Assembly (NCBI GenBank): GCA_905221615.1
Contig: CAJNDT010004502.1
Coordinates: 386,001-450,000 of the forward strand
Direction: 5' to 3'
Source: Symbiodinium sp. CCMP2592
Lineage: Eukaryota > Sar > Dinophyceae > Suessiales > Symbiodiniaceae
DNA length: 64,000 nucleotides
The notes beneath the pieces were generated by a model. That model worked only from the letters and a program-made list of their open reading frames with translations. It did not search any database and was not told the DNA's origin. Positions 13,294-64,000 of the stretch are shown piece by piece. Position numbers and translations under genes: made by a program. Positions within the stretch are counted from its first letter, which is position 1; each line of letters begins with the position of its first letter.

Positions 13294-15625
13294 ATGCTTC
13301 AAGTGAGGCTGCTCTCTGGTGAACCTCTGACGAGCATACCCGTTCAGGAGATATTCGATGTGCGGGGCTTGAAGCAGCGCTTGAGTCACTTAGTATGAGA
13401 GTCGTAACCTTTAGCCATCTTTAACCTTGGGTACTGTAATCCCTGTAGCTTAAGCTTGAGTTCCCCCAGGATATTGGTCAAGTAAGGTCAGCTGCCTGGC
13501 TTTCCGTCGCGATTTAGACAGAGGATCCTCGTGCATGGCAAGGATTTGGAGGATTCTGCTACGCTGGACTCGCCGATGGATCTTTGTCTCGTTTTGTTGA
13601 GCTTCACCGACGTTCCTCAAAGTCAGGTTGACGTCCTAGCAGCTGCTGCTGGGCAGGGCTCTATGCCAAAGGTGGGCGGTGACAAAAGAGCAAGTCCGGG
13701 ACACAAGCTTAATGGACCAGGGACATGAGGCTTCGCAACCTCTCACTGAAGAGGACGCGGCCAGCACGTGCGAAAGTATTCAAGCCTGTTTTGCACCATT
13801 GGGCCCTATTCTAGCTATCCTGATACTTCTTACCATGTAGAGCCACCGCTCCACATCCCAGCGAATCCCTGCAACAGCTTATGGAAAATCGACACTCGGA
13901 ACCTCAGTTTAAGGGCGCCCCGCAAGGCAACGTTGTTTGTCTGCTGGCTTCTGAGTGTATCCCCGAACAAGTCGGACAGCTGTGAAAGTAGGTGCTGCGG
14001 ATGCATCCAGGATGAGTGTCGAATCAACACTGTTTAGCCACATGAAGGCGCTTCATGTGGGTAGTTGTCAAAATTAGGGTTCCTTTTCGGGGTCCTTAAT
14101 ATAGTACGGTACCTAGTATTTAGGGTACTTCAAAAGGGACCCTAATTTTGACAACCACCGTGTGTACAAGGCTTATGGTTTATGATGTAGACGTTATGAG
14201 GTATGTGATCCCTGCGTGCTGAGGATTACACAGCGGTGTTTTATATCAAGAGTATGGGAGCTGTGACTCACTGGAGTTGGGGTTGAATGTTTAGCAGTGA
14301 ACTTACAAAATCTTACAAATCAGGGGTTTGACTTGCGACTTGCCCTTCAGGTCGAGTCCATGCTTCAGTTACCCCAAGATCCAGGCCGGCTAACCTCGGA
14401 TCGCTGTACAGCCTTGATTTTGGCATCGGACGCTGGTCATGACGGAGTTGTGCGCCTGCTGCTGGAGGCTGGTGCCAAAGCAGACACCACAGGCCGCACC
14501 GCTTTGAAAGTGGCATCTTGGCGGGGTCATGTCGGAGTCGTGCGCTTGCTGCTCGAAGCCGGCGCCGACAAGGATCTGCCAGATTACGAAGGCTGCACCG
14601 CCTTGCATTCGGCATCTTTGCAGGGTCATGTAGAAGTCGTGCGCTTGCTGCTGGAAGCCGGCGCCGACAAGGATCTGCCAGATGACGAAGGCTGCGTCGC
14701 CTTGCATTCGGCATCTTTGCAGGGTCATGTAGAAGTCGTGCGCTTGCTGCTGGAAGCCGGCTCCAACAAGGATCTGACTAATGACGAAGGCTGCACCGCT
14801 TTGAAATCGGCATCTTTGCGGGGTCACGTTGACGTTGTGCACTTACTGCTGGAAGCCGGTGCCGACAAGGATCTGGCAGACGCCCAAGGCCGCACCGCTT
14901 TGTGGTCAGCATGTATGCTGGATCATGTCGACGTCGTGCGCTTGCTGCTCGAAGCCGGCGCCGACAAGGATCTGCCAGATGACGAAGGCTGCACCGTTTT
15001 GAAATCGGCATCTTTGCGGGGTCACGATGACGTCGTGCACTTACTGCTGGAAGCCGGCGCCGACAAGGATCTGGCAGACGCCAAAGGCTGCACCGCTTTG
15101 AGGTCAGCATCTGTGCGGGATCGTGTCGAAGTCATGCCGGCGGCTGGAAGCGGGCGCCGACACGGATCTGATAAATGACGAAGCGCTATACAGCCTTGAT
15201 GTCGGCATCTTCGCGGGGCCTTGTCAAAGTCGTGCGCTTGCTGCTGGAAGCCGGCGCCAACGCGGACTTGACGGACGCCAAAGGCCGCAGTGCTTTGAGG
15301 TCAGCATCTTTGTGGGGTTATGTCGACGTCGTGCGCTTGCTGCTCGAAGCCGGCGCCGACAAGGATCTGCCAGATGACGAAGGCTGTGCCGCCTTGCATT
15401 CGGCATCTTGGCAGGGTGTTGTAGAAGTCGTGCGCTGGCTGCTGGAAGCCGGTGCCGACAAAGATCTGGATGGCGCCAAAGGCTGCACTGCTTTGAATTC
15501 GGCATCTTCGCGGGGTCATTGTCGACGTCGTGCGCTTACTGCTGGAAGCCGGCGCCGACAAGGATCCGGCAATCGACGAAGGCCGCACACCTGTGACCGT
15601 TGGATCTTTCACTACAGCTCGGTAA
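13294..15625 (+). CDS. Ankyrin-repeat protein, three exons, frame-broken in exon 3
   Basis: Exon 1 is 13294-13392 (ATG, 33 codons), with GT donor at 13393. Exon 2 is 13492-13671 (60 codons), after AG at 13490-13491 and ending AAG before GTGGGC. Exon 3 begins at 14351 after TTCAG. All junctions are phase 0, and the joined text flows: RLSHL/LPGFPSRFRQ and GSMPK/VESMLQLPQD. The first ~93 residues (LLSGEPLTS, RFRQRIL, LDSPMDLCLVLL) resemble a ubiquitin-fold-like leader I remember on many symbiodiniacean ankyrin proteins; this is recall, not a search. Twelve ankyrin repeats follow. Ankyrin arrays are protein-binding scaffolds, and no enzymatic domain is visible. Three indels in exon 3 break the frame, so this may be a pseudogene or contain sequencing errors. 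No promoter was identified. Confidence 0.8.
14053..14163. repeat. Hairpin element, family H4, inside ankyrin intron 2
   Basis: TGGGTAGTTGTCAAAATTAG at the left and TAATTTTGACAACCACC at the right. It lies wholly within the 679-bp intron 13672-14350, so it is removed by splicing if the gene is expressed. Confidence 0.8.
14351..15625 (+). CDS. Ankyrin array exon, twelve repeats, three indels
   Basis: Repeats of about 99 bp share the core GHVEVVRLLLEAGADKDL and the linker DDEGCTAL or DAKGRTAL. Their DNA is very similar, implying recent unequal duplication. The frame is intact to about 15135. A 2-bp loss there (GTCATGCCGGCGG against GTGCGCTTGCTGC in sister repeats) shifts it. An extra base near 15180 and an extra T at 15519-15520 (GGTCATTGTCGAC for GGTCATGTCGAC) shift it again. 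The net change is zero, so the original frame returns and ends at TAA 15623-15625. Repeats 9-11 read cleanly in the second frame. A GTG-initiated frame extends up to 14297, but AG at 14349-14350 is the better exon start. Confidence 0.85.
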
Positions 15626-15708
15626 AGGTCGTGGCAAACAACGACGGCCGCGGAGCCTTCATGATTGCATCCTCCAAGTGGCCTGCGATTGCTCGTTTGC
15701 CAAAATGA

Positions 15709-16294
15709 TCTCCGGAGATTTAGGTTTTACCCAGGGTGTATAGGGCTTACAAGGTTTATACAGGGGATCTCCACCTGATTTTCTTGCTTGGCTGTGTGGC
15801 TTTGCCGCATCCGTCGGGAGAGTGCGTCCTCACCTGCTAGCAACCACCGAGCCCTGCTCGCTCGTCATGTTGGTGTCGGAACCATCTTCTGGGGTGGCTA
15901 CATCTGTGTATCTTCTTGTCACTCTAGTCATGTCCTCATAGACTTATACGACCAGTGACACCAAATCTCTATTCACTCCTGTAAGCCCTTTTTTTATTCC
16001 CTCAGTCTAGGCGTGAGTGGAGGCTTATAAGCCCAAACCCCTTAAACCTGGGAGGTTTCTTTCAAAACCTCTCTTCCTGCTTAAGCAGCGTCTGTGAAAA
16101 CTCAGAACCTCCGGGCAACGATAACCCATGTAAACCCGAACGGCCCCAGCGGTTCAGGCTCTTGGGTATCGGATCGAGGAAGGATTGAAGTTAGGCCCAA
16201 CAGAAATCCGGAACCCTAAGCCCTAAACTTTCCCACTAATGTTACTAGTCCTGTTAGGGGTGAATCCTGAACCCTTGGGCCCCCAAGCTCATCT
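15709..16294. other. Stretch without a recognisable gene
   Basis: Non-repetitive at first (15720-15960), then telomere-like words from 16030. No open frame of interest. Confidence 0.5.
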
Positions 16295-48890: not shown

Positions 48891-49013
48891 AACAGATTGG
48901 ACTTCATCCCATGCGACGTGTGCGGCAACTGGGTTCCCTCGAACTTCAGCTGCCCGGCCCAGGAAAAGCTGCACGCGGGGAGGGCAAAGTCCCGCGTGCC
49001 CAAGCAACTTTAG
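48891..49013 (+). CDS. C-terminal exon, Cys-rich
   Basis: Not recognised. After GTGTAG (possible acceptor at 48889-48890) a plus frame reads LDFIPCDVCGNWVPSNFSCP, then AQEKLHAGRAKSRVPKQL, and ends at TAG 49011-49013. The CxxCxxW...C arrangement recalls the start of a CW-type or similar small zinc finger, but the last ligand is not evident. It converges on the minus-strand gene at 49010, and the two stop codons overlap. Upstream exons were not found. Confidence 0.4.
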   Translation, partial: NRLDFIPCDVCGNWVPSNFSCPAQEKLHAGRAKSRVPKQL

Positions 49014-49708
49014 GAGGCAGGGGCAGGGTTGGGGCCCCCACCCCCGGACTGCTGAGCCCTCCTCGGTCTCCGTCTCTTCGGTGAACTTGGCACTGGCTGC
49101 GACGGGGACGACTTCGGCGCCGCCCGTGTGGCCCGGTGGTTCGGCGTAGTAGCTCGCTCTAGCCGGTAACGTGTAGGCGCTGAACTCCGCAGGGAACTTG
49201 GCGGTGCGGGAACGTCGAGCTCCTCTGGCAGGAAGTGAACCCCTTGGTCAGTAAGAGACTGCGGGGAAGTCCGCGCATCATGGTCCTGGATCGCATCAGC
49301 GGTCAGAGCCCATCTCTGGTCTGTCTCCGGCTCTCTCGGCGGGTTCGGCAAAGTGACGGCGGCTTCCCCAGCCCCTTCACCTGGCCTCTCCTCCGTCTCA
49401 GCAGCGGGCGGTGGGGATTCTGCCGCAGTCTTGGCATTCTCCCTCCGCCTCTGGCGCTTTGCGCGCCTCTTCAAAGCCCGAGCTTCCCGCAGCTGTCGGG
49501 CCAGGTCCTCGCAGTTGCCACTTAGTGCAGCATCCGCGGTGCCAGCTGTCTCCACATCGCCCTGTACCCGCGCAGCCTTGGCTGTCTCTTGCAACAAAGT
49601 CGCAGTGACAGCCGCGGCCACGGAGGCGACAGTTCGACGAGGAGCCTTCGCTTGGCAAGCAGCACGGACGGCCGCGGAGATCCACGCGGCGCCATGCTGA
49701 GCAGCCAT
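49010..49708 (-). CDS. Ala/Arg-rich protein of 232 residues, unknown function
   Basis: ATG at 49706-49708, TAA at 49010-49012. The first 45 residues are Ala-rich with APRRTVASVAAAVTATLL. Residues about 65-95 form a strongly basic helix (LARQLREARALKRRAKRQRR). The rest is Pro/Ser/Glu-rich and probably disordered, ending SSPKRRRPRRAQQS and a Gly/Pro tail. I recall similar Ala-rich, PRRTV-containing starts on uncharacterised, often retroelement-linked, dinoflagellate proteins, but cannot verify this. GC-rich codon use separates it from its flanks. In-frame coding text continues upstream (next entry), so the ATG may be internal. Confidence 0.6.
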   Translation of the reverse strand: MAAQHGAAWISAAVRAACQAKAPRRTVASVAAAVTATLLQETAKAARVQGDVETAGTADAALSGNCEDLARQLREARALKRRAKRQRRRENAKTAAESPPPAAETEERPGEGAGEAAVTLPNPPREPETDQRWALTADAIQDHDARTSPQSLTDQGVHFLPEELDVPAPPSSLRSSAPTRYRLERATTPNHRATRAAPKSSPSQPVPSSPKRRRPRRAQQSGGGGPNPAPAS

Positions 49709-49759
49709 GCTCCTATAGGTGAGCCACTAAGACAGGAGTCCTAGGGGGAACTAGCTCAC

Positions 49760-50018
49760 CTTGCAGTCGCTCCACACCAATGAGTACCTTTGAGGGGCCT
49801 TGGCATGTAGTCCATGCGAACAGCTACTACAGGCGATGTAGTCCAGTGGACCGTGGATGCAATGCTGTTGCCGAGCAGCCTTGTGGATGTCCTCAGCATG
49901 TTTGTCACGAAGCTGACATATTGGGACTGATGGGGTGCTGAAGCGCTTGACTGGCGAGAGCGACACGCGAAAAGCGCTGATGTGGCACTCGACCCTACAA
50001 CGACGCGCCCCCCCCTGT
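49760..50018 (-). CDS. Upstream exon of the 49010-49708 gene
   Basis: On the minus strand a frame open from about 50030 reads RVSLSPVKRFSTPSVPICQL, HAEDIHKAARQQHCIHGPL, ACSSCSHGLHAKAP and SLVWSDCK, then meets AAG/GTGAGC, a consensus donor at 49759. A 33-bp gap (49727-49759, ending in TTAG) precedes WLTYRS followed in frame by the ATG of the next exon. The gap has two in-frame TAGs, so it must be spliced or is a lesion. HC..C.SC.H may bind a metal. Function unknown. Confidence 0.45.
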
Positions 50019-57422: not shown

Positions 57423-58823
57423 CTAGATTTCAAGCAGGTCGTTCCTGCAAATGACCCCGTTGGCTCGTGCCAGTCCTTTCAGGATTGAAGACATGTCAGT
57501 TCCGACAGTGACATAAAAGACATACTCATCCATTTCGAGTATGTCCAAAGAAAGCTTTCCATAGCGGCGCCTTGACCACTTTTTGAGCCTGCCGTTTTCA
57601 GACTCTGCATCATTCGTGTGGAACCCCGTAGCAGGATCACGAAAACACTTTTCATGTTTCACAGGAGGTGCGTAATCATAGCCTAGTGCTTCCACAGCCT
57701 TTTTGGTAGCAGTCCAACCGTCAAACACCAAGTACGAGCCTTTCGCGACGTGCTTTTCAACCGTGTTTTGGATTTCTTCAAAGCCGCGAGGTTTGTTCTT
57801 TATGGCTTTCTTGCGAGAAGGCAGAAGACGATAAGTGATGCGTTTCTTGCCGTTGTCATGGGTGTAGATCTCCTTGTTCTTGCCCACAGCGACAGCAAGC
57901 CATAGCCAGGCACCGTTTGTCTTGAGGTTTGCGGCAGTCTTCTTGAGTCGTTTGGCTGGTGGTCGAACGGCAGCAGGCTTCTTCAGGATCGTTTTCATCA
58001 CACCACATGGCCGCTTCATGTGTGTTGAAGCCGGCTTCTTCAGGAGCTGTGGCCCGGTGCGTGAAGCCTTCTCTGACCCATGAAGTGTTCGAGCTGGCAG
58101 CCTTTTCATGGCACCCTTGGAAACCAGTTTTTTCCGTTCCAGGCGCGCCGTTGTCCTAGTCTGCTCTGCACCAGCTTTGTTGATCCCCCTCGAACCAACT
58201 GACCAACCATCTTCAGGATGGACTCCGACGATGGCTTCGTCCATGACGACCGTCTCCTTCTTGCCACCGACGACCCTGCAGTCCATTTTGTCCAGAGCAG
58301 CACCGATAGCCCTCTGGAAGACGTCACGCCATTTCGCAATCGTCTTTTTGGCGATGTTGCCATAGCCCGCCTGCAACTCCTGGATGATGGTGGACCAGTT
58401 CATAGAAAGACGCAACATGTTGATGAGATGGAGAAACGGGAACCAGCTATTCACCGGTATTTCAGTGAGGAAGCCGTACTGGTTGAGTTGTAGTTCCATG
58501 TGCTTGTGCCCAACAGCACTGCATGTCCATCCAAAAGTCGTCCATCCCCTCGAGGTTCGCTGCTCGAAGCGAGCGGGCTTACCACATTTAGTGCATCTCT
58601 TTATCTGTAGAGCAGCCCCGTACTTCAAGAAGATGCCGATTGCCCTCAGTGACAAGGAAACATTCGCACCGTTTTCGTCGAGAACACGACGGTGAATGAG
58701 ATATTTTTGGAAGGCTACATCGCTCTCAAAGCAGTGCTCGTCGACGTCCTTGAGCCATTCTTTGAAGGAGCAGGAGGGTAGCTCCAGAGCATGAAGGCCA
58801 TCTTCCCGCGCACGTCTAGTCAT
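57423..58823 (-). CDS. IS1595/ISXO2-type DDE transposase with basic insertion
   Basis: An intact frame of 466 codons. ATG is at 58821-58823; a GTG five codons upstream is less likely in a eukaryote. TAG is at 57423-57425. Counting from the GTG: a zinc ribbon CTKCGKPARF ... WTCSAVGH at about 82-113; a helical region with the WR.VFQRAI motif (170-180); the first catalytic Asp in ETVVMDEAIVG (D200); the second in LVFDGWT (D373); and the third acidic or Asn position in GFHTNDAESENGRLKKWSRR (about 409-412). This is the architecture of the IS1595 group, related to eukaryotic Merlin elements (PF12762-type domain); transposases cut and paste DNA in the nucleus. Between D200 and D373 is a lysine-rich insertion of about 70 residues (235-305) with LLKKPAST and ILKKPAAV. 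I found no terminal inverted repeats, so domestication is possible. Confidence 0.8.
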   Translation of the reverse strand: MTRRAREDGLHALELPSCSFKEWLKDVDEHCFESDVAFQKYLIHRRVLDENGANVSLSLRAIGIFLKYGAALQIKRCTKCGKPARFEQRTSRGWTTFGWTCSAVGHKHMELQLNQYGFLTEIPVNSWFPFLHLINMLRLSMNWSTIIQELQAGYGNIAKKTIAKWRDVFQRAIGAALDKMDCRVVGGKKETVVMDEAIVGVHPEDGWSVGSRGINKAGAEQTRTTARLERKKLVSKGAMKRLPARTLHGSEKASRTGPQLLKKPASTHMKRPCGVMKTILKKPAAVRPPAKRLKKTAANLKTNGAWLWLAVAVGKNKEIYTHDNGKKRITYRLLPSRKKAIKNKPRGFEEIQNTVEKHVAKGSYLVFDGWTATKKAVEALGYDYAPPVKHEKCFRDPATGFHTNDAESENGRLKKWSRRRYGKLSLDILEMDEYVFYVTVGTDMSSILKGLARANGVICRNDLLEI

Positions 58824-59175
58824 TGTTGCACAGGCCACGTTAAGCTAGTACATGTACCAGGTCCAAGAACGCTCAACTGTGTTCGCTGCTGTTTGTCACA
58901 TGGCATTGAAACAATGACAGTCTGCTTGCTGACGTGCAGTGGACCTGCTAGTGATAAGCCCCGCAACTTGCCAAGAAACAAGTCAATGCTTGGTGGACAG
59001 CAATTGCAAAGCAATCAATCGACATCACTTGCAGCAAATCGTAGTGGCTCCATTTTCCAAGCCCAGAGGACGCCCGCTTGATTTTTTTCAATCGGCCGCT
59101 TGATTTTGGAGGCACACGAAACTTCTATTGAATTTGAGGAAATTTCAATCGTTTGGAACTTTTGTTGGTACGTGT

Positions 59176-59395
59176 TTCTATTGATTTTGAGTGTTGACTT
59201 CTATTGATTTTAATCGTGGTCTTTCTATTGATTTTATGGAAAATTTCTATTGATTTTATGGAAAATTTCTATTGATTTTATGGAAAATTTCTATTGATTT
59301 TATGGAGATTTTCTATTGATTTTGAGGTGGATGTTTCTATTGATTTTATGGAGATTTTCTATTGATTTTGAGGTGGATGTTTCTATTGATTTCAG
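59176..59395. repeat. About 23-bp minisatellite, core TTTCTATTGATTTT
   Basis: Eight to nine units: CTATTGATTTT followed by ATGGAAAATTT (about four copies), ATGGAGATTTT or GAGGTGGATGTTT. The last two variants alternate, giving a higher-order repeat. Confidence 0.9.
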
Positions 59396-59438
59396 CTTGC
59401 TGAAACGACGGCCCGGGCGGCCCCAGTTTGCTAACCAA

Positions 59439-59440
<2 letters not shown>

Positions 59441-59527
<87 letters not shown>
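59441..59527. repeat. GA microsatellite
   Basis: About 43 uninterrupted (AG) units. It gives Glu-Arg or Ser-Leu runs in open frames, which are not genes. Confidence 0.97.
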
Positions 59528-59535
<8 letters not shown>

Positions 59536-59582
59536 CAGAGATACAGAAAGACGGAGGAGACAGACAGAAGAGATGGGATGTG

Positions 59583-59762
59583 GGCCGGACGGCCCCACGA
59601 AGGGAGAAGGCGGGGGAATCATTTTTGGCAGGTTCGTGCATGGCAGCCGTCTTGCAACCAAAGCTTCCAGGGGCCGGACGGCCCTAAGAAGGAAGAAGGG
59701 GGGGAATCATGCTTCAAATCTCGTGCATGGCAGCCGTCTTCAAGCCAAGCTGCCAGGAACTT
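59583..59762. repeat. Tandem duplication, about 89-bp unit
   Basis: Two copies share GGCCGGACGGCCC, a G/A-rich patch ending GGGGGAATCAT, and TCGTGCATGGCAGCCGTCTT then CCAGG. They lie just upstream of gene A's start codon, so could hold its promoter or 5' leader. Confidence 0.75.
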
Positions 59763-59776
59763 TGGGCTAGGTCAAG

Positions 59777-60383
59777 ATGCAGGGCGATGATGAAATTGTC
59801 GTCCAGGCCTATGCCAAGCTGCTTCACGCCAAGGTTCCAGGCAAAGTCGCGAGGTCCTTGGTCGTGATGTGGCGGAGAGGTTACCTAGACCAGCTGGAGA
59901 TTCTTGGCATGAACACATATACATATACATATATATCTACATATATATACTTATACATATGCCGTATATAGACTATGTATTTAATTTTTTACTTATATAG
60001 AGCTAAGGGATGTCGACAAGGAAGTGGGCTTCCTGAACTTTTTGGAGTACCTCATGTACAAGATCGAGAATGATATGGACATCGACCCCGAGCGCTGGCC
60101 GGAGGCGACGAAGCACATGAAGATGAAGGAGCACGGGTACATCCGCTTGTTGCTCAACGATGCTTCATTGATCGCTCTCCAAGCAAACCCAGGCCCCTTG
60201 AGCGGAATGACGAAGCCTCAACTACTTTCGGAAGCAGTGCGGGTGGGGCTTAAGGTACACCAGTCCTGGAGCGACCAGGAGTTGCGGGCGAGGATCATGG
60301 AGCACGTGGACGCTACATTTTTTTGAAATTGAGCCGCCCGTGCGCCAGGTCCGAGGATCTGACCAGTGCCAGGCGGCTGGGAG
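59777..60383 (+). CDS. Gene A: small helical protein with SAP-like segment
   Basis: Not recognised as a named family. Exon 1 is 59777-59906 (ATG), with the GC donor at 59907 (CTTG/GCATGA). The intron to 60000 is A/T-rich and ends in TATAG. Exon 2 starts at 60001. The joined text YLDQLEIL/ELRDVDKEVGF keeps frame. Exon 1 carries AYAKLLHAKVPGKVARSLVV; exon 2 carries FLNFLEYLMYKIENDMDIDP, MKEHGYIRLLLNDASLIALQ and MTKPQLLSEAVRVGLKVHQS then WSDQELRARIMEHVD, which resembles a SAP helix-turn-helix (DNA-binding). As sequenced it stops at TGA 60324-60326 (151 aa). Removing one T from the T7 run at 60318-60324 would let the frame run on through EIEPPVRQVRGSDQCQAAG to a consensus donor (GGGAG/GTGAGC, 60384), so a one-base indel is suspected. 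It heads a same-strand row with B, C and D. Confidence 0.65.
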
Positions 60384-60684
60384 GTGAGCTCCAGGACAAG
60401 CCTCAAGTTTCCAAGATTCAAGGGGTCGTTTGTTAGAAGCGGCTTAATTCAAGTGCTAATCCAGGGCAGGCTACTGCCAGGGTATAATTCAAGCCGAGAT
60501 CGATCAAGCCCTGCTTGACATGCAAAATTGTCTTGGCGAGAAGAGGACCTGAGCTGAAGTTTTTTTTCATAGTACGCTGCATGCTTCAGGCAGGCCTAGC
60601 CAGGTCCTGGGCTTCAAGCTCCAGGCAGGTCTGTCGGGTTTAAGTGCTGCAGGCCGCCAGGCAAGTCCTCAGGTTCTTAGAGCC
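60384..60684. other. Spacer or intron between A and B
   Basis: CAGG-rich sequence (CCAGGGCAGG, CAGGCAGGCC, CCAGGCAGGT) with no open frame. If the donor at 60384 is real, this is an intron and A and B could be one gene. Otherwise it is an intergenic spacer and B starts at its own ATG. Confidence 0.4.
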
Positions 60685-61845
60685 ATGGGCAGCCCCGCAG
60701 CTGCTGGCCGCGGCGGCGAACGCAACTTCGCCAAGCCGGAGGTGGACCAGGAGCACTTGCTGGACGTGTTCAAGAAACACGTCAAGCTCCTAGGTGTCCA
60801 GGCCGCCTTCAACTTCGACCCCTACGGCAACCTAGCCAAGACGAGTGCTGTCCAGGCCAAAGGGCTTTCAAAGGCGACGGTTTTGCTCAAGAAACTCCAG
60901 GAGGTGGAGAGCGGCTTGGCTTTCAAGTACAAGGACTTGAAGGAGTGCTTGGCCAAGGTCAGCAAAGACTACCCGGACCTCATCCACCAGGCCCCGCTGA
61001 GCAAGCAAACTGCTTGGGCTGGGGACACGGCCGAGATGCTGCTGACCGTCATGGCTCATGCTCGCCGCTTGTGCAACGACACCAGGTTCAAGGAGGCTTG
61101 CAGCAAGGCGACCCAGTTCGAGATCAAGGATCTCGAGGAACTCAGGGCGCTGCTTCTTCCAGAAGTGTCGGCCTCACCAGCCAAGCTCCAGCAGGCGGAG
61201 ACCCACAACACCAAGCGGCCGAGCACAGGGACGCCAAGCCCTGCGACCAAGCCGCCAAAGCTACGGTCGTTAGCCCCTGCGAGCAGTCCGCTTCGAAAGA
61301 TTCGGACCAGGGATCTGGAGCTTCCAGACACTCCCAAGACCGCCAAGACGAGTTTGAGCCAGGAAGCCGAAGGCAGTCCCGTGCCAGGCAGCAAGGCTCG
61401 AATCAGGAAGTCTTGGGAGGGCGAGGTTTTGAAGAAACCAGCTGCAGCCGCTAAGCCTGTGAAAAAGGACAGTGACAAGCCGAAGAAGAAGCCGGCCTCT
61501 AATCTTAACATTAGAAAAAAATTTTTGTTGTTCGTAAGCATATATTTCTATCTAGGAAGATGTATTTAAGTGAAGCCCTGAATGTTTAATCTCCATCATC
61601 AGGCCCCCAAGGACAAGGACAAGCCCGAGTTGACGGAGGCTGAAAGGGGCAAGCTGCAGATCATGCACTACCACGACAGTGTCGCATTGAGAGTCGACGG
61701 TTCTAGGCAGCTTTTCCAGATCGTGTGCAGGAAGCATGGTCGGGATAAGACCAAGCTTCAGGTTGCCAAGATGAAGAAGAAGCTCGCCGAGGGCGGCTCT
61801 TTGGCAGAGGCCTTCAAGGAGAAGGCTAAGTTTTTGGAGTCCTAG
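60685..61845 (+). CDS. Gene B: two-exon basic protein with KKPA tail
   Basis: Not recognised. Exon 1 is 60685-61494, from ATG in the context GAGCCATGG; the GC donor is at 61495 (AAGCCG/GCCTCT). The intron is 108 bp and A/T-rich. Exon 2 is 61603-61845, after CATCAG. Joined length is 350 residues. Residues about 15-165 look helical (VDQEHLLDVFKKHVKLLG, SKATVLLKKLQEVESGLAFK, DTAEMLLTVMAHARRLC). Residues 165-270 are Pro/Ser/Lys-rich and disordered (KRPSTGTPSPATKPPKL, EVLKKPAAAAKPVKK). The last ~80 residues (TEAERGKLQIMHYHDSVALR, QLFQIVCRKHGRDKTKLQVA) look like a small folded module. The basic tail suggests nucleic-acid or chromatin contact (inference). KKPA motifs also occur in the transposase at 57.4 kb. 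Confidence 0.7.
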
Positions 61846-61872
61846 TTTCAAGTCTTTTAGTGTTCCAAGCCA

Positions 61873-61986
61873 GGGCTGGAAGCCCGGTGGCCTCGACTGC
61901 ATAAGCCAGTATGCATGAGTGAAAAACACATCGACCCTCCAGCTGCATGAGCCTGCAAGTAAAGTTTCAAGGGCTGGACAGCCCTT
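61873..61986. promoter_or_regulatory. Two spacer hairpins between B and C
   Basis: GGGCTGGAAGCCC at 61873-61885 (stem 5, loop 3), 28 bp after the B stop, and AAGGGCTGGACAGCCCTT at 61969-61986 (stem 7, loop 4). The same motif is amplified after gene C. It may act in 3' end processing, but that is a guess. Confidence 0.45.
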
Positions 61987-62111
61987 TTCGGCGGCAAATG
62001 CTCCCAAGCGAGATCGATCTTCGGCCGCTGCAGCTCCCAAGCTCAAGAAGCAGCTTTAGGAGTTACTTAGTCAGGCAGCCAAGGAGCTGCCAAGTCAAGC
62101 CGGTCCAAGCC

Positions 62112-62952
62112 ATGGCCGGCCAGCAGCCTCGAGGGCGCCCAGGAGGACCCATCCCCGCGATGGGAAAGGGCCCCCAGCGAAACAGTCAGCCAGGCGGCAC
62201 CGGACACTTGCACGCATGTAACAAAGTTTTGCATTTGTTTTAAGGATTTAACGAAACCGTTGATGTCTATGTTTGAAAGCACTCAGACTCAAGCGCCTGG
62301 CGAGAGAACTGGAGGGCGCTTTACAGCCAGTACAAGGACGAGGCCGGCCTTGGAGTAACAAGCAAAAGTTTATACATACATTATAATATATATATATATA
62401 TATATATCAAAAAATATACATAAAAATATGTACATATATATATATATATTTGTTTTTTATATGTTTGTGTCCCTTGTTGCGGTCCCTATCTAAGCCCCCA
62501 TCCCCTAAAACTATATACTTAATGAAAACCCCTGCGGCCAGGGCGAGACCTTCGGCCACTGGCAAAACGATGTGGTGCGACACCTTAGCCTCAAGTTCGA
62601 CACCCAGATGCCCCAGGACCAGTCGATCAGGTTGTTCATTAACCGGGTATTTGAGCAATCAGGAACAATCGAGTCGATCGACGACTGGCTGGAGGTACAG
62701 TTGGATGAAATGAGCATAAAAAGGAGCAGCCAGGAGCCCCAGGATCCCCGCTCATCCAGGAGCCAGCAATCCCAGGAGCTCCACATTAATTGGACCTCCA
62801 ATGGGCAGGATGAGCAGGGTCGACCCTTGTCACCCTGGAGGCGGCCACAGCCACTGCCTGCACCTCCTAAGGGCCTCCAGCTCCAGGGCAAGACGTCGCC
62901 ACCTCCCAAGCAGCCGCCGGCGAAAGCACCTGCCCAGGAGCAGCTTGACTGA
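62112..62952 (+). CDS. Gene C: three-exon protein, unknown function
   Basis: Not recognised. Probable start is ATG 62112 in GCCATGG (MAGQQPRGRPGGPIPAMGKG, a Gly/Pro/Gln-rich leader). The frame is also open upstream to 61947. The exon 1 end is uncertain; CCAG/GCGGCA at 62193-62194 gives the right phase. Exon 2 is 62287-62354 (SSAWRENWRALYSQYKDEAG), with GT donor at 62355. Intron 2 (187 bp) holds TA repeats. Exon 3 is 62542-62952, after GGCCAG: GETFGHWQNDVVRHLSLKFD, RLFINRVFEQSGTIESIDDW, then a Ser/Gln/Pro-rich tail ending PAQEQLD and TGA. Joining gives EAGLG/GETFGHW without a frame break. The folded core is about 80 residues; no motif is known to me. Confidence 0.6.
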
Positions 62953-62989
62953 ATTTACTTGACCTTTTAATCTTCAAAACCTTTAGCTG

Positions 62990-63230
62990 TCTTCAAGCCG
63001 TCAAGGGCTGGAAGCCTATTGAAGCCGTCAAGGGCTGGAAGCCCTATTGAAGCCGTCAAGGGCTGGAAGCCCTATTGAAGCCGTCAAGGGCTGGAAGCCC
63101 TATTGAAGCCGTCAAGAGCTGGAAGCCCTATTGAAGCCGTCAAGAGCTGGAAGCCCTATTGAAGCTGTCAGGGGCTGGAAGCCCTATTGAAGCTGTCAGG
63201 GGCTGGAAGCCCTTTTAGCTGGAAGCACCC
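62990..63230. repeat. 28-bp tandem array carrying a hairpin
   Basis: About eight units of TTGAAGCCGTCAAGGGCTGG then AAGCCCTA. Most units contain the palindrome AGGGCTGGAAGCCCT (stem 6, loop 3). In two later units the G of the stem is changed (AGAGCTGG) and the last two have GTCAGGGGCTGG. It lies between gene C's stop and gene D. There are no spacers between units, so it is not a CRISPR array. Confidence 0.9.
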
Positions 63231-63285
63231 CCAAGTAGCAGTGGAAACACCCAAAATTAGCCCTTAAGTTTGAGTCATGATCTCA

Positions 63286-64000
63286 GGCCCGCTCCGCCCG
63301 CTACCCCGGCGACCTCAGTCCCAGCCACCACAGCAGAAGGCGACCTTCCAGGCTTGAATTATCCAAAGTCATGTATAAGCCACATGTAAAACGATTTTTG
63401 AAAACCCGTAAGCTTTCTTTGAAATCTCGGCAGCTTGCAGGAGGTCAAGCTGAGACGGAGGATCCCGCTGCCCTCGAGTTCTTGGAAGCCGAACTTGCCA
63501 AGCTCCAGGAGACCAGGCTCGAGGTGGCCCACGAGATCTACAGGCGCAACCGCGAGGTCGGATCTTTAAAACATAATTATCATCTACTCTTTAAGCAAAG
63601 ATTTTATTGTAAAAAAACCTATTATACTGTTTCCTTCTATTCTGAATTCTAGGAATATACGATTTCCAAGGCCCAGCTCCAGGACGAGCAGGAAAACGAA
63701 AGGCAGGCCACAGAGACGGAATTCCAAGAATTCCAAGAGTCAATGGAAGAAGTCAAGGCGAACTCTGATGCCGAATGGGAGGAAAAAATGATAAAGGAGG
63801 TGGAGGAGAGGAGGGCCAAGAGGTCGAAGACGAGGAGTGACGACCTAAGCAGAACGCTGGTCGTCAAGCGCCAAGACCTCGACAGAGAGCTCTCCAAGCT
63901 CCAGGAAGCACTCATCTCCAGGTACGACCGGGACGTGAGGGACCAGTTGTCCAGGTTGAAGTTGGAAGTCTGGAAGTCCAAGGACCAGGACTTCACGACC
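63286..64000 (+). CDS. Gene D: coiled-coil protein, runs off the window
   Basis: Not recognised; incomplete at the right edge. Exon 1 probably ends at 63351 (PPATPATSVPATTAEGDLP; GC donor CCAG/GCTTGA); its start is unclear, perhaps after CTCAG at 63286. Exon 2 is 63441-63556, after TTGCAG, reading QAETEDPAALEFLEAELAKL and RLEVAHEIYRRNRE, with GT donor at 63557. Exon 3 runs from 63653, after TCTAG, reading EYTISKAQLQDEQENERQAT, EKMIKEVEERRAKRSKTRSD and LDRELSKLQEALISRYDRDV. The Glu/Lys/Arg/Gln-rich heptad text predicts a long coiled coil, so a dimeric structural or scaffolding role is likely (inference). Both mapped introns are under 100 bp and keep frame. Confidence 0.6.

Follow-up and report, generated by a model that had tools for sequence, protein, structure and literature searches.

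A 14,863-bp multigene DNA transposon with a CMCT-like candidate transposase in the genome of Symbiodinium sp. CCMP2592

We have extended a preliminary description of a 64,000-nucleotide stretch of the Symbiodinium genome (the window, C4501:386001-450000; the genome searched is a 1.1-Gb assembly of 5,383 contigs) and find that window positions 59062-64000 are the left third of a 14,863-bp DNA transposon. The element was read in its left third and at its right end (locus L010), together two thirds of its length, with a middle of ~5 kb lying outside the sequence read. It is probably moved by a DDE transposase resembling those of the CACTA/Mirage/Chapaev/Transib (CMCT) group, the product of gene F near the right end, and the products of genes A to D and G may act as accessory proteins. 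The element is best read as belonging to a new and recently active CMCT-like transposon lineage that carries accessory proteins. Its features are as follows, in window coordinates except where a contig or locus is named.

59062..64000, + strand: transposon, left third (whole element C4501:445062-459924), common to copies on five other contigs and bounded by reference to empty sites
59060..59061, no strand: target duplication (AG, 2 bp), left copy; the right copy, C4501:459925-459926, lies beyond the window
59062..59071, + strand: left terminal inverted repeat CCCAGAGGAC, of which the right end is the exact inverse over 10 bp; 14 copies have both ends
59175..59392, + strand: subterminal direct array, nine copies of CTATTGATTTT; eight copies in the same orientation at the right end (L010)
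59777..59906, + strand: gene A, exon 1, from its frame and identity with another family's frame at 22 of 37 residues
60001..60326, + strand: gene A, exon 2, with the SAP-like segment near its end, from its frame and residues recurring in other open frames
60685..61494, + strand: gene B, exon 1, encoding the conserved N-terminal domain and the basic KKPA stretch; residues 1-166 identical in 46 copies listed, diverged families at 35-39%
61603..61845, + strand: gene B, exon 2, a small domain matching the end of a diverged-family B; three strands and two helices predicted
62112..62217, + strand: gene C, exon 1, from frame and intron borders
62287..62354, + strand: gene C, exon 2
62542..62952, + strand: gene C, exon 3, from copies and in-frame gaps relative to the copy on C278
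62995..63213, + strand: 28-bp tandem repeat in the interval between C and D
63277..63351, + strand: gene D, exon 1, end tentative; first 26 residues identical in C278
63434..63556, + strand: gene D, exon 2, start tentative
63653..64000, + strand: gene D, exon 3, coiled coil by eye, open at the window end
Readable right end (L010): gene E, tail only
L010:1914 to about 3806: gene F, three exons, near the right end of the element
L010:4043-4981: gene G

The ends of the element are precisely fixed. It runs from CCCAGAGGAC to GTCCTCTGGG, i.e. CCC...GGG, with exact terminal inverted repeats of 10 bp, and copies on five other contigs align with the window copy from ~59,060 to C4501:459,924. Flanks differ among copies, with the exception of two copies on contig C5172 that have the left flank in common. 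The flanks of the window copy, fused with a single AG, occur unbroken at six other loci, with 100% identity over 360 bases at three and 92-98% at the other three, and the window's own locus breaks exactly at the AG in this comparison. A 2-bp target duplication is present in 11 of the 14 copies in which both ends were read (chance 1/16 per copy, p 1.7e-11) and absent from the remaining three, while a 3-bp duplication was found in none of the 14. The empty sites and the 2-bp duplication show that the element has moved, inserting whole between fixed ends. Unit insertion, fixed ends, target duplication and terminal inverted repeats, by which a class II (DNA) transposon is recognised, were thus all observed, and the mobile element that the preliminary description had raised as an alternative to a gene row is borne out by dispersed near-identical copies, inverted termini, 2-bp duplications and empty sites.

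Copies are numerous and nearly identical. Among the matches listed, B residues 1-166 show no differences in at least 46 copies; an 821-bp piece of gene B gave 40 scored matches from 117 candidates, with 26 sharing the top score, and all 40 scored matches (of 120 candidates) to a 901-bp piece from the window end are long and 99-100% identical. The window copy and the C4885 copy have no differences over 3,805 aligned bases, pairwise divergence among five further copies is 0.08-0.42%, and one further sequence (L002) appears to be 2.7% divergent from L005 and L006. This near-identity, over 3,805 bases and over B residues 1-166, points to a very recent spread of the element. Because the stretch is a high-copy dispersed repeat, its earlier description as repeat-poor is incorrect, and it is likewise not the only GC-rich stretch of the window, positions 49001-50000 and 15001-16000 having 62.6% and 56.6% GC, respectively.

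The flank at the insertion site is itself repeated and adjoins an IS1595-like transposase frame on the minus strand (57423-58844), a 473-aa open frame with KKPA motifs and an IS1595-type Pfam match at E 7e-4, below the cut-off. As the sequence just outside this frame recurs at six other loci, the frame probably belongs to a second mobile element that received the transposon as an insertion.

Four same-strand coding units and six inferred introns were found where the preliminary description had placed them, genes A and B having two exons each, C three and D at least three. The four genes had been said to lie within 4.2 kb, but D continues beyond the window end. Intron boundaries were chosen by reading frame and the donor sites, GC in three introns and GT in three, are therefore putative; the 3' end is AG in all six. 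GC content is 54-61% in exons and 21-37% in introns. The exon joins are supported, at the level of sequence comparison, by this base composition together with intron-less or relocated homologues, the exons of a sub-family and in-frame gaps. In a diverged family, B is a single continuous open frame (L053, 431 aa) whose end matches B exon 2 at 33% over 73 columns (E 4e-7, in one comparison only), and A exon 1 matches a frame of family 4 at 22 of 37 residues (59%, E 9e-15). The exons are retained in a diverged sub-family copy on C278 (L060), relative to which gap lengths are multiples of three in 7 of 8 coding gaps but in just 4 of the 21 gaps outside coding exons (Fisher p 0.0014). For C the dN/dS value is invalid, as its exon 2 was taken one base too short. 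The same comparison yielded dN/dS values of 0.78 for A, 0.81 for B and 0.94 for D, which, being near 1 as expected for transposon copies, do not alone demonstrate selection on these genes. Gene A exon 2 of the C278 copy has 84 additional in-frame bases, and gene A matches in many other copies occur either as two pieces or as a longer frame.

None of A to D matches a Pfam family at cut-off, in agreement with the earlier statement that they belong to no known family, and an Rfam scan of the window gave no matches. The SAP-like segment previously noted in A survives in a weak form: residues ~63-105 of a 108-aa query recur in other open frames at 45-66% identity, but A has no match to the Pfam SAP domain. 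For B, the AlphaFold prediction of the N-terminus from one sequence had a pLDDT of 48.5, too low for use, and the B alignment matched no solved structure by sequence. Of five models predicted for exon 2 of B, the best, consisting of three strands and two helices, had a pLDDT of 84.6 and the others 57-66. Foldseek searches with the exon 2 model returned nothing at E 0.001 in the PDB or in a viral library. The top probability among the 50 PDB rows listed, 0.57 at an insignificant E of 1.6, was to a Plasmodium AP2 DNA-binding domain (6sy0), a resemblance of the predicted fold which is a lead only; the top among the 50 viral-library rows listed was an uncharacterised phage protein (probability 0.82, E 0.30).

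The transposase candidate is F. The motifs HGD, GD[ML]E, C..C.C and LD.LH..DLG...H are common to all five F sequences aligned and YG.ES to four, a masked stretch interrupting the remaining sequence. Residues D181, D255, C274-C277, H498-H502 and E521 are invariant in all four of the sequences covering them (family 1, to which the window copy belongs, C136, C445 and C2737, with C445 close to family 3). The published signature of CMCT transposases is a DDE triad whose second D and last E enclose C(2)C and H(3-4)H (PMC12730594), a pattern into which C274-C277 and H498-H502 fit, and F therefore resembles DDE transposases of the CMCT kind. With nine invariant histidines in the alignment, the H498-H502 spacing could arise by chance; the fit to the CMCT motif is good without amounting to proof. 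Searches with Pfam of the F exons and aligned sequences found no relevant family (best E 0.013, Nodulin_N, in one of five sequences), and PHROGs gave a best E of 0.051, also in one of five. Against solved structures by sequence, the F alignment had no matches and the F sequence alone had one, NadR, at E 0.94. F is itself dispersed, with at least 150 scored matches among 743 candidate places in the genome. The ~5-kb middle of the element might encode a further recombinase.

Comparison with En/Spm suggests how such an element may function. In En/Spm, TnpD is the transposase and TnpA binds the subterminal repeats, both being required (PMC2613891). On this model, F would excise the element at the CCC termini and reinsert it elsewhere. 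Less certainly, A, B, C, D and G would have accessory roles, one or more of them binding the CTATTGATTTT arrays near the two ends and helping to join the ends as TnpA does. Candidates for array binding are B, with its KKPA stretch and predicted C-terminal domain, and A, with its SAP-like segment.

Diverged families occur in the same genome. B has relatives at 38-39% identity in family 2 (at least 15 matches listed) and 35-37% in family 3 (at least 18 listed), and relatives of F are 42-49% identical over exon 2, with one sub-family at 67%. The order in family 3 is B, a C-like frame and then F, as in family 1, and in 42 of the 46 family-1 and 15 of the 18 family-3 copies listed F follows B on the same strand at a distance of no more than 14 kb. 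Gene order is not fixed, however, as in family 4 (C136) an A-like frame directly follows F, whereas A precedes B in family 1. A single relative, 51% identical over 111 residues, was found for D. The relationship of C across families is weak (E 2e-4 in a single comparison) and was not found genome-wide, and correspondence of E in family 1 with the protein at the same place in family 3 is unsupported (E 2.1). The element starts are CCCAGAGG in family 1, CCCAGAGC in family 2 and CCCAAAGG in family 3, and the right end of family 6, read inwards, is CCCATATG, so that families 1, 2, 3 and 6 all have CCC termini; the borders of families 3 and 6 were taken as the point where two copies cease to agree, and that of family 2 by likeness to family 1. 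Terminal hairpins were considered and dropped, since only family 3 was clear of its shuffles (z -2.6), the other four families ranging from -0.6 to -1.7. A fragment CLDR[HQ], encoded by a DNA word like TGTCTGGATCGACA, recurs in families 3, 4 and 6, both inside genes and in the intervals separating them (L053, L054, L056, L058), and may belong to introner-like elements.

A rival reading is that F is the transposase, with A to D, E and G being captured host or foreign passengers that have no role in transposition. We regard this as unlikely, while giving it some weight: dN/dS between close copies is near 1, A of family 4 follows F instead of preceding B, and C and E show little or no conservation across families. 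Against it, B stays linked with F in diverged families at 35-39% identity with its frame intact, A exon 1 is 59% conserved in family 4 and D retains its relative at 51%. It is less probable still that A to D are pieces of one long precursor with alternative products, comparable to tnpA and tnpD of En/Spm. Their proximity on one strand would suit such an arrangement, and En/Spm and Tam1 operate in this manner (PMC2613891), but A, B and C each have their own start and stop codon, and dinoflagellate joint transcripts can be resolved by spliced leaders (PMC11453091).

With F as a CMCT-like transposase and its neighbours as accessory proteins, the element resembles known systems to different degrees. 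CMCT elements have target duplications of 2-5 bp and mostly CA..TG termini (PMC12730594); the 2-bp duplication observed here is inside this range, while the termini are CCC..GGG, F has no detectable sequence match to a named member (Pfam) and the element adds several genes. CACTA/EnSpm elements, among them maize En/Spm, Antirrhinum Tam1 and soybean Tgmt*, are large and contain introns, short inverted termini and subterminal repeat arrays, and they encode a transposase and at least one more protein (PMC2613891). The present element is likewise large and intron-bearing with short inverted termini and subterminal arrays (nine and eight copies), but differs in its CCC..GGG termini, in a duplication of 2 rather than 3 bp, in arrays that are in direct orientation at both ends, and in that F is not recognised as Transposase_21 (PF02992). 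A genome-wide scan for Transposase_21 found none, a result to be read with the equally silent positive control. In a search lying mostly outside subscription papers, we found no account of such an element in the literature. We propose, only tentatively and with somewhat more doubt than conviction, that it represents a new DNA-transposon superfamily with a RAG/CACTA-like transposase, whose movement would depend on a dedicated group of accessory proteins (A and B, perhaps also C, D and G) and on the direct subterminal arrays, and which would be currently moving in a dinoflagellate.

A virus-derived Polinton or Polinton-like virus, with viral genes in the ~5-kb middle and A to D and G being viral genes as well, is very improbable. 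Length of ~15 kb, many genes and terminal inverted repeats are shared with such elements, the middle is outside the sequence read, and Polinton-like viruses of 14-40 kb are reported to expand in protist genomes (PMC12220804). However, no capsid, polymerase, packaging or integrase gene, nor any other viral gene, was found in the two thirds read, the inverted repeats are only ~10 bp, the target duplication is 2 bp, and F is a conserved DDE-like protein. Scans of IMG/VR, in which records near this genome are possibly absent, with B residues 1-166, F exon 2 and the F alignment gave no confirmed relatives in any of the three. Finally, an ordinary same-strand row of host genes spread by segmental duplication, as the long unidirectional gene arrays of dinoflagellates (PMC11071213) and the left flank common to the two C5172 copies might suggest, is refuted by the empty sites, and the differing flanks of other copies, the fixed ends and the 2-bp duplications also contradict it.

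Recognition of the transposon has consequences for genome annotation. Dinoflagellate gene sets contain many genes of unknown function, and one published pipeline discards gene models as transposons only upon a match to a library of known transposons (PMC8045281); in the parts of PMC11453091 and PMC8045281 consulted, transposons of dinoflagellate genomes are mentioned only in general terms. As none of the proteins read from the element reaches a Pfam cut-off, elements of this sort could pass as novel host gene families and be miscounted as such. If the superfamily reading is true, accessory genes would explain part of the lineage-specific unknown gene families of dinoflagellates. F would broaden the known relatives of the CACTA and RAG transposases, and the element, given its recent movement and exact empty sites, might be developed into a tool for dinoflagellate genetics.

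Several further observations concern the genome and the remainder of the window. The DVNP family has 25 matches in this genome and none in 14 control genomes, which identifies the genome as that of a dinoflagellate, and its genes form a tandem array at C5235:371869-378234 with a spacing of ~0.68 kb. Window positions 1-58000 contain many dispersed CCCTAAA/TTTAGGG telomere-like heptamer arrays, distant from known contig ends. A tandem array that is ankyrin-like by eye occupies two open frames on the plus strand at 14267-15708, with ~11 copies of a 99-bp period at 14491-15588.
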